Shown piece after piece: positions 21,275-28,696 of a stretch of DNA of 34,585 nt. The DNA lies in assembly GCA_009699465.1 (NCBI GenBank), contig WLOE01000006.1:1-34585 (forward strand). Direction: 5' to 3'. Source of the DNA: Actinomycetota bacterium (GTDB taxonomy: Bacteria > Actinomycetota > Actinomycetes > S36-B12). The first letter of the stretch is position 1, and every line of letters begins with the position of its first letter. Under the pieces are notes generated by a model. That model saw nothing but the letters and a program-made list of their open reading frames with translations. It was not told where the DNA came from and made no database searches. The translations under genes and the position numbers were made by a program.

Positions 21275-21981
21275 CCATTGAATTAACAGATGAGCGCGTC
21301 GAACAATTGACAATCCTTCGCGCGGAGTTAGGTGTAGAGGTCTCCGACGAACTTTTACATCTTGCCCTCATCCATCGCTCTTATGCCTATGAACAAGGCG
21401 GTATTCCGCACAATGAACGCCTTGAATTCCTTGGGGATTCCGTTCTTGGAATTGTTGTGACTGATGAGTTGTATCGACGTTTCCCTGATCTTGCAGAGGG
21501 GCAACTTGCAAAAATTCGTGCTGCTGTTGTCAATGCCCGAGCGCTCGCTGATGTCGCTCGAGCTATTGGGCTTGGCTCGTTCATATTGTTAGGCCGAGGA
21601 GAAGTCACTACAGGTGGAGATGACAAGTCATCAATTCTCGCCGACAGTATGGAAGCTGTGATTGGTGCGATGTATTTATCCGCAGGCCTCAATGGTGCTG
21701 GTGATTTTGTCCACCGTATTTTTGATCCATTGATCACAGCTTCTGCTGACCTTGGAGCGGGCTTGGATTGGAAAACTTCCTTGCAGGAAGCCGCTGCGGC
21801 AGCAGAGCACGGTCTACCTGAATATCTCGTTGAGGATTCTGGTCCTGATCATGAAAAAGAATTTGTTGCTCGGGTGATCGTTGGCGGTCAAGTTCTCGGT
21901 ACTGGCATTGGACGATCAAAGAAGATTGCCGAGCAACAAGCAGCCGAAGCGGCATATCGCGCACTTGTCCACCATGCCTGA
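21271..21981 (+). CDS. rnc: Ribonuclease III
   Basis: [59 protein letters not shown]-terminal ds[24 protein letters not shown]. Confidence 0.96.
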
Positions 21982-22816
21982 GCTGCCAGAAGTTGAGGTT
22001 GTTCGCCGAGGTGTTGATGCCTGGGCGACTCATCGTGAAATTACCAAAGTAGAGGTTCTTCACCCTCGAGCAGTCCGTCGACAAGTAGATGCTCTTGCTG
22101 GTGAACTTCTTGGCCAGCAATTTCATTGTGCATCGCGTCGTGGAAAGTATTTGTGGTTGCCATTGACAAATGAACGCTCGTGTCTCGTTGTGCATTTGGG
22201 CATGAGTGGGCAGTTGTTGATGCAGCCACCAGAAGTAGTCAGTGAAAAGCATCTGCGCGTTCGGATTTCTTTTGCTGATGATGATCATGAACTTCGTTTT
22301 GTGGATCAGCGAACGTTTGGTGGCATGCATACCGATGAGTTGATTTCAGATTCCTTAGGTGGGTTGATTCCAGCGCAAGTGGCGCATATTGCCCGTGATC
22401 CTCTTGATCCTGACTTTGACCAGGCTCTCGTCGTGCGTCGTGTGCACGCCAAGGATGTTGAAATCAAGCGCGCACTCCTAGACCAAGGCCTGGTTTCAGG
22501 TATCGGAAATATCTATGCCGATGAGTCACTGTGGCGGGCAAAGGTCCATGGAAATAGGCGTGCCAGCAACCTTTCAGCGAGAAAACTTAAGGAAATCCTC
22601 GGCCATGCGGCCACGGTGATGCAGGAAGCCTTGAATCAAGGGGGAACGAGCTTCGATTCGCTCTATGTCAATGTCAATGGGGAGTCTGGGTATTTCAGTC
22701 GTTCGCTCAACGCCTATGGCCAAGAAGGGCAACCGTGCCCGCGATGTGGAAGCCAAATCGTGCGGGAGAAGTTTATGAATCGTTCCAGCTTCTCGTGCCC
22801 TAAGTGTCAGCGCTGA
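21974..22816 (+). CDS. mutM: Formamidopyrimidine-DNA glycosylase
   Basis: [36 protein letters not shown]-terminal zinc finger [26 protein letters not shown]. Confidence 0.96.
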
Positions 22817-22841: not shown

Positions 22842-23114
22842 TCAAGAACTGAATATGCGCAGGAGTTCACCGATTTTGTGATTCGCTTCCGCCGGATGTC
22901 TAAAACGAAGATCCGGCTGAACTTTGTAGGTATTGCGGCGTCCGACCTTGCTGGTCGTCACATAGCCGACCTCTTCCAGGTCATGCAAAATTCCCTGAAC
23001 GGAGCGCTCGGTAATACCGACGGCCATCGCAATGTCTCTGATTCTCGAACCGGGATTACCGGTGAGATGTATCAGGACATGGGCGTGATTTGTAAGAAAT
23101 GTCCACTGTGACAT
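22842..23114 (-). CDS. Winged helix-turn-helix transcriptional regulator (small MarR/ArsR-like)
   Basis: MSQWTFLTNHAHVLIHLTGNPGSRIRDIAMAVGITERSVQGILHDLEEVGYVTTSKVGRRNTYKV; ATG 23114 preceded by AAGGAG. Confidence 0.83.
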   Translation of the reverse strand: MSQWTFLTNHAHVLIHLTGNPGSRIRDIAMAVGITERSVQGILHDLEEVGYVTTSKVGRRNTYKVQPDLRFRHPAEANHKIGELLRIFSS

Positions 23115-23170
23115 CACTGACTCCTTTCAACAGGAAAATTATATACATGAATTTTAATACTAGCAATGTT

Positions 23171-23194
23171 ATACACGTAAAAAAATACGTGTAT
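23171..23194. promoter_or_regulatory. Putative operator: ATACACGTA-AAAAAA-TACGTGTAT
   Basis: Perfect 9-bp inverted repeat in the AT-rich divergent region, overlapping a TATTAT -10-like element before the methyltransferase start. Confidence 0.6.
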
Positions 23195-23195
23195 T

Positions 23196-24029
23196 ATGTA
23201 TCGTATGAATATTGGTGAATACGAAGATTCAATTTCGGCAGCCTGCCTGATTCCCACGATGCCTTATCCGGCTAATCACTTCGCATTTCGTCATGTGATG
23301 AAGGCATTGCCCGAGCAGGAAGGGACATCGATCGTGGAGATCGGCGTCGGTATGGGAGGCGCAATTCCACTGTTTGCGGGAGCCGGCTTTACTTTCGCAG
23401 GCATTGATCGAGACATTGACTGCGTCGAAAGTAGTAGCCGAGAGTTATGTGAGGCTGGTCAAGATCCTCATCGCATTGTTCAAGCCGACCTGGAGGATTT
23501 AGCGTCATTATCGAGATTGCCGGATAGTGCACACTTCGACGCTTTGATCGCTATGGGCGTGTTTCCTCACCTCAGCTCGGTTAGGCAGGGGATTCTCAAT
23601 GCAGTAAGTCTTGTGCGTCCGGGGGGACACCTCTTCCTTGAATTTCGAAATGCACTCTTTTCACTTGTAACTTTTAACCGATACACACAAGAATTCATCT
23701 GCGATCGACTTCTTGTGGATGCATCGTCAAAAGTCCGGGCAGCGGTGAATACCGAATTGCAGAAGCGACTGAATCTCCAGATTCCATCAGGGGTGATTCA
23801 CCCTGAGGCCTTTCATGTGCCATTCGAGATTGTCGATCTCGCCCATGATCTTGGGCTTACGAATCCGCGGGTGATTCCGTTCCATTTCCACGCAGGAATG
23901 CCTGCTATCGAAGAGGAAGTCCCACAGTCATACCGACTGGATTCAGTGGCCCTTGAGGATGATTCCTCAGGTTGGAAGGGGCTGTTCCTGGCGTCGGCTT
24001 TTCTTCTACATGCTCAACGACCTGAATAA
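23196..24029 (+). CDS. Class I SAM-dependent methyltransferase
   Basis: SIVEIGVGMGGAIPLFAGAGFTFAGIDRD (motif I), QADLEDL, ALIAMGVFPHLSSVRQGILNAVSLVRPGGHLFLEF. Alternative ATG at 23205. Confidence 0.85.
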   Translation: MYRMNIGEYEDSISAACLIPTMPYPANHFAFRHVMKALPEQEGTSIVEIGVGMGGAIPLFAGAGFTFAGIDRDIDCVESSSRELCEAGQDPHRIVQADLEDLASLSRLPDSAHFDALIAMGVFPHLSSVRQGILNAVSLVRPGGHLFLEFRNALFSLVTFNRYTQEFICDRLLVDASSKVRAAVNTELQKRLNLQIPSGVIHPEAFHVPFEIVDLAHDLGLTNPRVIPFHFHAGMPAIEEEVPQSYRLDSVALEDDSSGWKGLFLASAFLLHAQRPE

Positions 24030-24031
24030 AA

Positions 24032-25003
24032 ATGTCGATGGATATCTGGTCTCTAGCTTTCGACAACCTACTTTCAATTCCGGTTCTGTGTTTCGTGCTG
24101 GGCTTCGTTGCGACTCGCGTGAAATCCGACTTGCAATTTCCAGACAGCGTGATGAAGTTTTTAACGTTCTACTTGCTCCTTGCGATCGGCATCAAAGGTG
24201 GAGTTTCACTCCAACAATCTGAATTCACCGAAGTCGCATGGCCGGTGATCGCAACTATTTTTCTAGGCATCGTCTTACCGATTTGTGCGTTCGCCGCATT
24301 AAGGTTTCTCACCAGGCTTGATCGGCAAGATCGAGGAGCGATCGCAGCTCACTATGGATCTACATCATTAGTGACGTTTACGGCAGCGCTTGTATTCCTG
24401 GAAACTGCGGATATTTTCGTCGAGGGTTACGTCGTCACTTTGCTTGCCGTGATGGAAGTTCCCGGAATCATCGTTGGGCTCATGCTGGCCGGATCGCACA
24501 GTCGAAAACCTCGTGAGCTAAGTGCGAGTGCGCGCGAAGTGCTCACGAGCCCTTCGATTGTGCTTCTTGTCGGTGGTGTAGTCATCGGTTGGGCCGCGGG
24601 TCCTGAACGCTTCAAGAGCGCCGAACCATTCTTTGCGGACATTTTCATCGGAATGCTGAGTCTGTTTTTACTCCAAATGGGTGTGACTGTTGCAAAACGC
24701 ATCTCGTCGTTTGCCTCTGCTGGGCCAGGGCTAGTTCTCTTTGCTGTGTTGTTCCCACTCGTAGCAGGGTCGATAGGTGTGTTTGCAGGTTTGGCTGTAG
24801 GTCTAGGTGCGGGAGGAGCCTGCATGCTTGGCGTGCTGTGTGCTAGCGCCTCGTATATTGCAGCGCCGGCCGCTGTACGACTAGCCCTCCCTAGGGCCAA
24901 TGAAGGCCTGGCGATCACCTGCAGCTTGGCGATTACATTTCCCATCAATATGGTCGTGGGAATCCCATACATGGTCTTTCTCGCGCGAACCCTTGTGGCC
25001 TGA
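24032..25003 (+). CDS. SbtA-type sodium-dependent bicarbonate transport family permease
   Basis: LGFVATRVKSDLQFPDSVMKFLTFYLLLAIGIKGGVSL, AAHYGSTSLVTFTAAL, LCASASYIAAPAAVRLALPRANEGLAITCSLAITFPINMVVGIP; multiple TM segments. Confidence 0.87.
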   Translation: MSMDIWSLAFDNLLSIPVLCFVLGFVATRVKSDLQFPDSVMKFLTFYLLLAIGIKGGVSLQQSEFTEVAWPVIATIFLGIVLPICAFAALRFLTRLDRQDRGAIAAHYGSTSLVTFTAALVFLETADIFVEGYVVTLLAVMEVPGIIVGLMLAGSHSRKPRELSASAREVLTSPSIVLLVGGVVIGWAAGPERFKSAEPFFADIFIGMLSLFLLQMGVTVAKRISSFASAGPGLVLFAVLFPLVAGSIGVFAGLAVGLGAGGACMLGVLCASASYIAAPAAVRLALPRANEGLAITCSLAITFPINMVVGIPYMVFLARTLVA

Positions 25004-25126: not shown

Positions 25127-28100
25127 GTGCACCTCAAAAGTATGACCCTGAAGGGCTTCAAGTCCTTCGCGTCTTCCACAACCATGCATTTCGAGCCTGG
25201 GGTCACCTGTGTGGTGGGTCCCAACGGTTCAGGAAAGTCCATCGTTGTTGATGCCTTGGCCTGGGTCATGGGTGAACAGGGTGCCAAGAGTCTTCGTGGC
25301 GGCAAGATGGAAGACGTCATCTTCTCGGGCACCGCAGGTCGAGCACCGCTTGGTCGTGCTGAAGTCTCCTTGACGATTGATAACTCTGATGGGGCTCTAC
25401 CCATTGATTACACCGAAGTCACGATTGCTCGTACCTTGTTCCGCAACGGTGGATCTGAGTATTCAATCAATGGGGCTGCTTGCCGCTTGCTTGATGTCCA
25501 AGAACTCCTCAGTGATTCAGGTATTGGCCGCGAAATGCACGTGATCGTTGGGCAAGGTCAGCTCGACACGGTTCTGCGCGCAACACCTGAAGAACGTCGT
25601 GGCCTGATTGAAGAAGCCGCGGGCGTCCTGAAGCACCGTCGTCGCAAGGAAAAAGCATTACGCAAGTTGGATTCCATGGAAGCCAATCTCACTCGTTTGA
25701 ACGATCTCACCACTGAACTTCGCCGTCAGTTAAAGCCTCTTGGCCGTCAAGCAGAAGTTGCTCGCCGCGCAGTCGTGATCCAAACCGATGCGCGCGATGC
25801 ACGTCTACGTTTGATGGCAGATGATCTTGTGCAGATGCGAGAGGCGCTTGCTGCTGAAGTCGCGGATGAGTCGGCCCTACGTTCGCGTCAAAATGTAGTG
25901 GAAAGCGCATTAGCGGCTTTGCGGGAGCAGGAAACCGCTACTGAGGCGGTGACGCTCGAACAATCTCCACGACTTGAGGCTGTTCAAGAGACTTGGTTCT
26001 CATTGAGCGGTTTACGCGAACGTTTTGTGGGTCTGGTGCAACTGAGTACCGAACGCGTGCGCAATTTGCAGCCAGAAGCAGCCGATGAGAATCCAGGTCG
26101 TGATCCAGAGCAACTCGATGCGGAGGCTCGCACCTTACGAGCCAAAGAGTTCGAGCTCGGTCGTGAAGTTGAAGCATCACGTGATGGGCTTTCTGGAGCA
26201 ACAGTTGCGCGTGCGTTAGCTGAAGAGGCGTTCACCGCTGAAGAGCGTCGGATTGCATCTGTTCAAAAAGCGATCACAGAACGTCGTGAAGCGTTGGTCC
26301 GCTTGAGTGGTCAGGTGAATGCGGCGGCATCCAGAGTCGAAGCGCGCACCCACGAACTTGATCGTTTGCGCGAGTCAATTCGCGAAGCAACATCACGTGG
26401 AGATAAAGCTCAGGCAGATTTTCAAGCCATCGAGGTCCAAGTTGCCGGGCTTGATGAAGGCGAAGTTGGTCTCGATGAACATCATGAGCGAGCTGAAGCG
26501 GCGCTTATAGCTGCCGATGCAGAAGTTGAGCGTTTGCGTGGCATTGAGGCAACAAGTGAGCGCGAGCGCGCTGCATTGAGTGCTCGACTTGAAGCGTTGT
26601 CGATGTCGCTTACCCGCAAAGATGCTGGTGGAGCGTTAGTCGCAGCGTCAGATCGAGTGCCAGGATTTGTTGGACCTCTGGCAAAGCAACTTCATATTGA
26701 CCATGGTGCGCAAGCTGCAGTTGCGGCAGTGCTTGGGGATCTGGCCGATGCTGTTGTCGTGCGAGGCGTGCAAGCAGCCGTAAGTTCATTGGTCTTATTA
26801 AAGGAACAAGACGCTGGCCGAGCCGCGCTCGTAGTAGCCAGTGATGACTTCAACGCGCCACATGAATCACGCCAGAGCGCTCCCGTTGGCGTCTGGCTTC
26901 GCGATCGGGTGCGTTGTGATGATTCACTTCGATCCGTAGTCGATCGCTTACTCGCCGGTGCGGTGCTCGTTGAGTCAGTGGAGATCGCCGCACAACACAG
27001 TCAGTTACACCCCTCACTGGTATTCGTCACTCCTACAGGCGATGTTTTCTCTCGTGATGTTGTGCACGGCGGTTCTCAGAGCACTTTGAGTTTGCTTGAA
27101 GTTCAGGCCGCATACGACGAAACCGAAACTGCATTACAAGAAGCCGTGCATAGTGCGGAACGTGCTCGATTCGACATGGTTGCAGCAAAGCAAGTTCAAG
27201 AAGCTGCAGCAGTATCTGTCGAGCAGGCATTAACGGGCTTACATGAATCCGATGCGCGTATGGCGGCTGTTGCAGAGCAATTGGGCCAGCTAGGTCAGGT
27301 TGCTCGTGCTGCCGCAGCTGAAGCGGATCGACTCTCAGCATCGTTGACCGCTGCTGAGGTTGCGCACGGTACTGACGTTGCGAACCACGAACAGTTACAC
27401 CTTCGTTTGATTGCTGCGCAAGATGAACCCGAAGTAGAAGTCGGAGATGATCAGCGCGAAGCCTTTGCGGAAGCCGCAAAAGCTGCACGTCAATCTGAAG
27501 TAGATGCTCGTTTGGCTTTGCGCACGGGTGAAGAGCGTGTTACAGCCGTAGGTATTCGTGCAGAACAGCTTGAAAGCGCGGCGAATGCAGAGCGCGAGGC
27601 TCGGGTTGCCGCGATTCAACGCCGTGAGAAACGCGCACGTGATCTGGTGACGGCCCAAGCAGTGCTCAGTGGCGCGAAGGCAGCACTTTCACGCATTGAA
27701 GTATCAGTGGCTCAAGCCAGTGCAGATCGTGCACTTGCGGAAAAGCAGCGCAAGGAACGTGATGAATCCTTGGTAGTTGTGCGAGCCAAGATTCGTGAAC
27801 TCACAGCTGAATTTGATTTACTCAAAGATTCGGTTCATCGAGATGAGGTTGCACGAGCAGAGCAGCGGATGCGTATTGAGCAGGTTGTTGATCGCGCAAT
27901 GGAAGAATTTGGGATTGAAGCAGACGTACTTACAGCCGAGTACGGTCCAGACCAGATGGTTCCACCAAGCTTGGTTGTTCCAGGTGACGAAGTTCCGCAA
28001 GACGCTCCAGAACCTCAGCCGTATCCCTTTGTTCGGGTTGAGCAAGAAAAGCGCTTAAAGGAAGCAGAGCGTGGTTTGGCATTACTGGGCAAGGTCAATC

Positions 28101-28696
28101 CATTGGCTCTTGAAGAGTTCAATGCGATGGAAGAGCGTCACCGCTTCTTGTCTGAACAGCTTGATGATCTTCGCCGCACGCGTGACGACCTCCTTGACAT
28201 CATTAAGGAAGTTGATGCGCGCGTTGAGCAGGTGTTCACCGAGGCATACACCGAAATTGAACGCGAATTCGAGGGTGTCTTTAGCCGTTTGTTCCCAGGC
28301 GGTGAAGGCCGATTGATTCTGACTGATCCGAGCAACATGCTCACCACCGGTGTAGATGTTGAAGCTCGTCCTCCAGGCAAAAAAGTTAAGCGTCTTTCAC
28401 TACTCTCCGGTGGCGAACGTTCGCTTACTGCTGTTGCATTCCTCGTGGCATTGTTCAAGGCACGCCCGTCACCGTTCTATGTACTTGACGAAGTTGAAGC
28501 CGCGCTTGACGATGTCAACCTTGGACGCCTCATCGACATCATTGAAGAATTGCGCGATAGCTCACAGTTAATCGTGATCACTCACCAGAAGCGAACGATG
28601 GAAATCGCAGACGCTCTTTATGGTGTTTCGATGCGTGGCGACGGTGTCACACAGGTCATTGGTCAGCGTTTACGTGAGTCTGCAACTGCCTCATGA
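25127..28696 (+). CDS. smc: Chromosome segregation protein SMC
   Basis: LKSMTLKGFKSFASSTTMHFEPGVTCVVGPNGSGKS (Walker A), coiled coils and hinge, LSLLSGGERSLTAVAFLVALFKARPSPFYVLDEVEAALDDVN. Confidence 0.96.
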   Translation: MHLKSMTLKGFKSFASSTTMHFEPGVTCVVGPNGSGKSIVVDALAWVMGEQGAKSLRGGKMEDVIFSGTAGRAPLGRAEVSLTIDNSDGALPIDYTEVTIARTLFRNGGSEYSINGAACRLLDVQELLSDSGIGREMHVIVGQGQLDTVLRATPEERRGLIEEAAGVLKHRRRKEKALRKLDSMEANLTRLNDLTTELRRQLKPLGRQAEVARRAVVIQTDARDARLRLMADDLVQMREALAAEVADESALRSRQNVVESALAALREQETATEAVTLEQSPRLEAVQETWFSLSGLRERFVGLVQLSTERVRNLQPEAADENPGRDPEQLDAEARTLRAKEFELGREVEASRDGLSGATVARALAEEAFTAEERRIASVQKAITERREALVRLSGQVNAAASRVEARTHELDRLRESIREATSRGDKAQADFQAIEVQVAGLDEGEVGLDEHHERAEAALIAADAEVERLRGIEATSERERAALSARLEALSMSLTRKDAGGALVAASDRVPGFVGPLAKQLHIDHGAQAAVAAVLGDLADAVVVRGVQAAVSSLVLLKEQDAGRAALVVASDDFNAPHESRQSAPVGVWLRDRVRCDDSLRSVVDRLLAGAVLVESVEIAAQHSQLHPSLVFVTPTGDVFSRDVVHGGSQSTLSLLEVQAAYDETETALQEAVHSAERARFDMVAAKQVQEAAAVSVEQALTGLHESDARMAAVAEQLGQLGQVARAAAAEADRLSASLTAAEVAHGTDVANHEQLHLRLIAAQDEPEVEVGDDQREAFAEAAKAARQSEVDARLALRTGEERVTAVGIRAEQLESAANAEREARVAAIQRREKRARDLVTAQAVLSGAKAALSRIEVSVAQASADRALAEKQRKERDESLVVVRAKIRELTAEFDLLKDSVHRDEVARAEQRMRIEQVVDRAMEEFGIEADVLTAEYGPDQMVPPSLVVPGDEVPQDAPEPQPYPFVRVEQEKRLKEAERGLALLGKVNPLALEEFNAMEERHRFLSEQLDDLRRTRDDLLDIIKEVDARVEQVFTEAYTEIEREFEGVFSRLFPGGEGRLILTDPSNMLTTGVDVEARPPGKKVKRLSLLSGGERSLTAVAFLVALFKARPSPFYVLDEVEAALDDVNLGRLIDIIEELRDSSQLIVITHQKRTMEIADALYGVSMRGDGVTQVIGQRLRESATAS

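Follow-up and report, generated by a model that had tools for sequence, protein, structure and literature searches.

The window, the whole stretch of 34,585 nucleotides analysed here, comes from a 1.72 Mb draft genome of an Actinomycetota bacterium (145 contigs, 88% complete). It carries an islet of three genes between mutM (21974..22816, + strand; its ORF, as listed, extends upstream to 21881) and smc (25127..28696, + strand), a pair of flanking genes in synteny with two other loci (L040 and L233). A small winged-HTH (wHTH) regulator occupies 22842..23114 on the minus strand. Divergent to it are a class I SAM-dependent methyltransferase of 274 aa (23205..24029, + strand, with an alternative ATG start at 23196) and a 323-aa SbtA-like Sbt_1 permease of the Na+/bicarbonate type (24032..25003, + strand). 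For the regulator we prefer the ATG at 23114, which yields 90 aa and has an RBS-like AAAGGAG just 5' of it, over a possible GTG start at 23117; the homologue at L040, which starts with MSQWTFL, fits this choice. The original prediction of three genes at this place, with the regulator on the minus strand and 2 bp between methyltransferase and permease, is borne out by the ORF positions (stop at 24029, start at 24032). GC content hardly differs between the islet (0.51) and the window (0.54), and a repeat check at both edges found no common word of more than 8 bp. There is thus no sign of a recent insertion from a foreign source, and we rejected this origin.

Conservation and content of the islet

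The trio extends to six further genomes, as a search of gene neighbourhoods revealed, and adopts two arrangements. In order A, the wHTH gene is divergent to a methyltransferase-permease pair: this is the case in the host and in genomes G028, G369 and G005 (70-84% identical), the site lying between mutM and smc in the first three and beside ahcY in G005. In order B, wHTH, permease and methyltransferase follow each other on one strand, in three genomes of another genus (G395, G397 and G404; 44-60% identical). Partial versions also occur: the wHTH gene is divergent to the methyltransferase with no permease in sight in G407, and in G024 the contig ends past the methyltransferase of such a pair. 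Retention in seven genomes and two gene orders makes the trio a conserved unit, so that the refuting outcome first named for it, confinement to this genome, did not occur. One might still see the islet as a random accessory insertion devoid of functional unity, as it breaks a housekeeping stretch and the permease is missing from most genomes of the same genus; however, this is extremely improbable for a set kept in so many genomes, at two or more genomic sites, with a candidate operator common to the order A trios.

The permease strongly matches the SbtA-type profile, as had been predicted (Pfam PF05982, Sbt_1, 353 bits for a cut-off of 27, residues 18-316). Its sole solved relative by sequence is the SbtA protein Slr1512 (7cye, E=1.5e-30), and sequence alignment brings both halves of the permease onto the SbtA repeats. 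We mapped the Na+/HCO3- site residues of Slr1512 from PMC8352866, in which the four HCO3- ligands are docked. The window permease keeps G111, S114, S322 and S324 of this site, S114 and S324 being HCO3- ligands, while at the positions of the other two docked ligands, Y140 and S327, it has L and A instead. For this reason we file the protein as an SbtA-like Sbt_1 member rather than as SbtA itself. Identical replacements are found in all 14 SbtB-linked actinobacterial homologues compared, and thus do not set the window permease apart. By family membership, the permease would bring in HCO3- together with Na+. That it carries a different anion, or exports a methylated product of the methyltransferase, is a quite unlikely alternative: it can invoke the two changed ligand residues and the constant proximity of methyltransferase and permease, 2 bp apart here and neighbours in both gene orders, but the SbtB-linked homologues, one of which has an upstream carbonic anhydrase gene, share both changes, and permeases of the same clade stand at many loci without any methyltransferase.

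The second gene of the operon matches Methyltransf_11 (37.4 bits, cut-off 21.2), with Methyltransf_12, 23 and 25 also above their cut-offs, and its motif I (VEIGVGMGG) in a Rossmann-type domain identifies a class I SAM methyltransferase. Among functionally named NCBIfam families none scored above its cut-off, the best being UbiG with 30.2 bits for a threshold of 103. The structure model (pLDDT 89.7) retrieves generic small-molecule methyltransferases in a fold search, with TM scores of about 0.5-0.6. This subfamily was found only in the taxonomic family of the window: of 166 genomes from the order, 40 have it, and 296 further genomes from the phylum yielded no copy. In G411 it occupies the place that SbtA-SbtB hold in G009, and in G022 (L067, about 815-988) a C-terminal SbtB remnant without SbtA precedes it, in what appears to be a decayed SbtA-SbtB site. 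It is rather doubtful that the gene has nothing to do with carbon uptake and entered the cassette by a chance insertion at the divergent promoter. Its restriction to one taxonomic family would suit such a capture, as would its many copies elsewhere, for example next to argF and PEPCK genes or within polysaccharide-like clusters (names by reading); yet it adjoins the permease, the wHTH gene or both in at least eight genomes, in differing orders, besides its presence at the two former or alternative SbtA-SbtB sites. The best reading of the model and its context is that of a linked, co-regulated accessory, which may act on a small molecule; a modification of the permease or the regulator by this enzyme found no support. 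On gene content, the core pairing is that of wHTH and permease, with the methyltransferase added within one taxonomic family only.

A small regulator family beside three carbon systems

The wHTH protein matches the MarR_2 profile marginally (28.9 bits, cut-off 27) and TrmB exactly at its cut-off (25.6). Its model (pLDDT 90.4) shows a single helix past the wing, and a structure search places AspA, MepR, HcaR and PcaV as its nearest solved folds. These matched MarR structures have roughly 135-145 residues. With 90 aa and one helix past the wing, the islet protein lacks the MarR architecture of about 140 aa, which includes dimerisation helices, so we describe it as a MarR-like wHTH only. It shares with MarR-type and other small winged-HTH repressors the fold and a candidate palindromic operator in a divergent promoter, but belongs to a family of its own, in which the motifs WTFLTNHAH and GRRN are conserved. 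Across an alignment of 18 relatives, His11, His13, Arg73, His74 and Glu77 are conserved and no cysteine is.

Scanning named genomes with this alignment matched at least 590 relatives, of which the best 80 were kept, irrespective of their neighbours. Inorganic-carbon genes adjoin the wHTH gene in 56 of these 80 best loci: the gene facing it is Sbt_1 in 19, a methyltransferase-Sbt_1 pair in 2, DabB-DabA in 17 and a beta-carbonic anhydrase in 18. Representatives of each neighbour class were confirmed with Pfam (DabA with 719 bits, Proton_antipo_M, Pro_CA). All 18 carbonic anhydrase loci belong to Micromonospora and are therefore not independent, whereas the DAB loci are distributed over Microbacteriaceae, Nocardioides, Tessaracoccus and Acidobacteria records, so that the link crosses phyla. 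The remaining 24 loci have other or unassigned neighbours (TerC in 7, DUF6671 in 2, isocitrate dehydrogenase in 1, no assignment in 14). Co-occurrence was counted separately, in an even sample of 297 genomes of the phylum with the window genome set apart: the wHTH is present in 10 of the 15 other Sbt_1 genomes versus 38 of the 281 without Sbt_1 (Fisher p ~8e-6). The notion of a dedicated regulator thus needs correcting: the wHTH is no one-off, but belongs to a large family also found beside DAB complexes and carbonic anhydrases. The transporter families involved are unrelated, and the islet itself has no DAB/MpsAB genes (DabA, PF10070, and DabB), although its wHTH relatives are divergent to dabB-dabA at the 17 loci above.

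Alternatively, the signal for this family may be alkaline pH, Na+ or a metal (Zn, for example), and its target genes may serve pH or metal homeostasis, their handling of bicarbonate being incidental. Several observations lean this way: TerC-like membrane genes are divergent to the wHTH at seven loci; a ZnuABC-like operon (by reading) follows the wHTH-methyltransferase pair of G407 (L243, 1467-4147); carbonic anhydrase is itself a zinc enzyme; the folds nearest to the wHTH include those of ZitR, AdcR and SmtB, which are metal sensors; and His11, His13, His74 and Glu77 could bind a metal. We consider it unlikely nonetheless, as most of the neighbourhoods feature one of three non-homologous inorganic-carbon systems, good palindrome sites are missing at the TerC loci and the alignment has no conserved cysteine.

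Other neighbours recur at a smaller scale. The TerC-family genes are those of Actinoplanes-type genomes (L112, L113, L117, L118, L120, L121 and L124). DUF6671 directly follows the wHTH gene on the side away from Sbt_1 at L102, L104, L107, L119, L123 and L125, lies near it at L074, L081 and L091 (by reading), and may be one more partner of the carbon genes. purE (N5-CAIR mutase) adjoins the wHTH gene at L163, L166 and L071, in Chloroflexi-type and other records, and isocitrate dehydrogenase does so at L158, L109, L110, L073, L077 and L096; the products of both genes handle CO2 or carboxylation. In Tessaracoccus (L122, 3961-4233 and downstream), two tandem wHTH copies, the second with about 51% identity, stand beside a DAB operon.

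Within the permease family, two kinds of regulatory partner can be distinguished. SbtB-type relatives have a P-II/SbtB-like gene 3' of the permease (L042, L047, L048, L050, L055 and others), whose P-II identity was confirmed with Pfam; wHTH-type relatives have a wHTH gene divergent to the permease (L049, L051, L053 and L054). Both partners are present at a few loci (L129, L140 and L172), and no SbtB adjoins the islet. In the permease tree, three trio permeases belong to a clade with 99/95 support whose 18 rows are all wHTH-linked, and SbtB-linked rows from the same taxa fall outside it. Sister lineages would thus have adopted two solutions for one permease family: control by protein contact through SbtB, or control of transcription through the wHTH. 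Compared with cyanobacterial SbtA-SbtB (TC 2.A.83), the islet has a permease of the same superfamily that keeps core Na+/substrate-site residues, and a single-gene Na+/HCO3- importer is expected here too; it differs by the replaced Y140 and S327, by the wHTH and its candidate operator standing in the regulator's place, and by a host in which no RuBisCO was found.

A palindrome in the divergent promoter

A candidate operator, the 22-bp palindrome TACACGTAAAAAAATACGTGTA (23172..23193), lies between the two divergent genes and fits the pattern TACAYG-N10-CRTGTA. Consensus matches, whose number is near chance expectation, suggest a putative methyltransferase-permease promoter at 23170..23197 on the plus strand (TATACA, 16 nt, TATTAT) and a putative wHTH promoter at 23138..23166 on the minus strand (TTGCTA, 17 nt, TATAAT). 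The palindrome covers the -35 to -10 region of the former, which suggests repression. Among 116 promoters of wHTH relatives, the pattern occurs 8 times perfectly and 12 times with one mismatch, against 0 and 0.14 in shuffles that preserved base composition, though not dinucleotides; leaving out the eight discovery loci, 2 perfect and 10 one-mismatch sites remain in 108 promoters. Its distribution follows the neighbour classes unevenly: 11 of 19 Sbt_1 loci have a site with at most one mismatch; with up to two allowed, 7 of the 17 DAB loci have one, as do 3 of the 18 carbonic anhydrase loci. No site with up to two mismatches was seen at the TerC loci, and the pattern was not found in the three order B trios.

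In the 1.7 Mb host genome, the only perfect copy is that of the islet's divergent promoter. One-mismatch sites are no commoner than those of a reversed control pattern, so the palindrome regulon looks local, and we discarded the idea of a genome-wide one.

A candidate bicarbonate uptake cassette and its host

We propose that the islet is probably a cassette by which a photoheterotroph takes up HCO3- with Na+ under local regulation. Acting on transcription, the wHTH would be its alternative to the PII-like SbtB. This protein, presumably as a dimer, is the wHTH that would bind the palindrome in the shared divergent promoter and so repress the methyltransferase-permease operon; a shortage of inorganic carbon, or of a metabolite that reflects its level, would lift the repression. 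In this way the wHTH would do by transcription what SbtB does in sister lineages by binding the transporter, and the imported bicarbonate would be used for carboxylation in a rhodopsin-bearing heterotroph. CcmR and CmpR, which work in a similar way, are LysR proteins with an effector domain, to which the islet wHTH is unrelated. The similarity would lie in the control of HCO3- transporter transcription by carbon status, which is described for CcmR in cyanobacteria (PMC3401165).

The regulator family behind the cassette is the part most worth testing. One small wHTH family, tied by neighbourhood and partly by a palindrome to three unrelated carbon systems, constitutes a testable candidate, and may be an undescribed inorganic-carbon switch in non-photosynthetic organisms. 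To our knowledge, there is little work outside cyanobacteria on how heterotrophs monitor and regulate their supply of bicarbonate. In the open-licence literature we found no regulator of the wHTH or MarR-like kind for SbtA, DAB or carbonic anhydrase, and no description of the trio, in line with its initial assessment as an unfamiliar set. A more speculative extension, to which we give limited credence, would make the wHTH the first example of a so far undescribed family of single-domain transcription factors sensing CO2/bicarbonate, either directly or via a small ligand for which His11/His13/Arg73/His74/Glu77, all conserved, would form the binding site. In phyla other than cyanobacteria, such a family would switch SbtA-like permeases, DAB pumps and beta-carbonic anhydrases, and the methyltransferase would tune the signal in one lineage.

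The gene content of the host agrees with the heterotrophic lifestyle first attributed to it. No PF00016 match, indicative of RuBisCO, was found in the host genome, in G005 (74% complete) or in G028, and a cyanobacterial-type CCM was accordingly rejected. A rhodopsin gene is present (L240, contig C132, 1413-2108; PF01036, 129 bits), as are two beta-carbonic anhydrases, a function whose presence elsewhere in the genome it had been suggested to check. Bicarbonate may serve anaplerotic carboxylation; PEP carboxylase, considered as a user, was not found in the 88%-complete genome and was set aside. Two precedents make a photoheterotroph with an SbtA-like importer a fitting combination: MpsABC supplies bicarbonate for carboxylation in the non-autotroph S. 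aureus (PMC11394868), and sbtA is biased to rhodopsin-positive genomes among Flavobacteriia (PMC5932025). The proteorhodopsin-bearing Flavobacteriia likewise combine an sbtA-type gene with a rhodopsin-bearing heterotroph, but the passages of PMC5932025 consulted mention neither a wHTH nor a methyltransferase as a partner. Judging by the two nearest trio genomes, the host is probably of freshwater origin. One rhodopsin gene is also present in G028.
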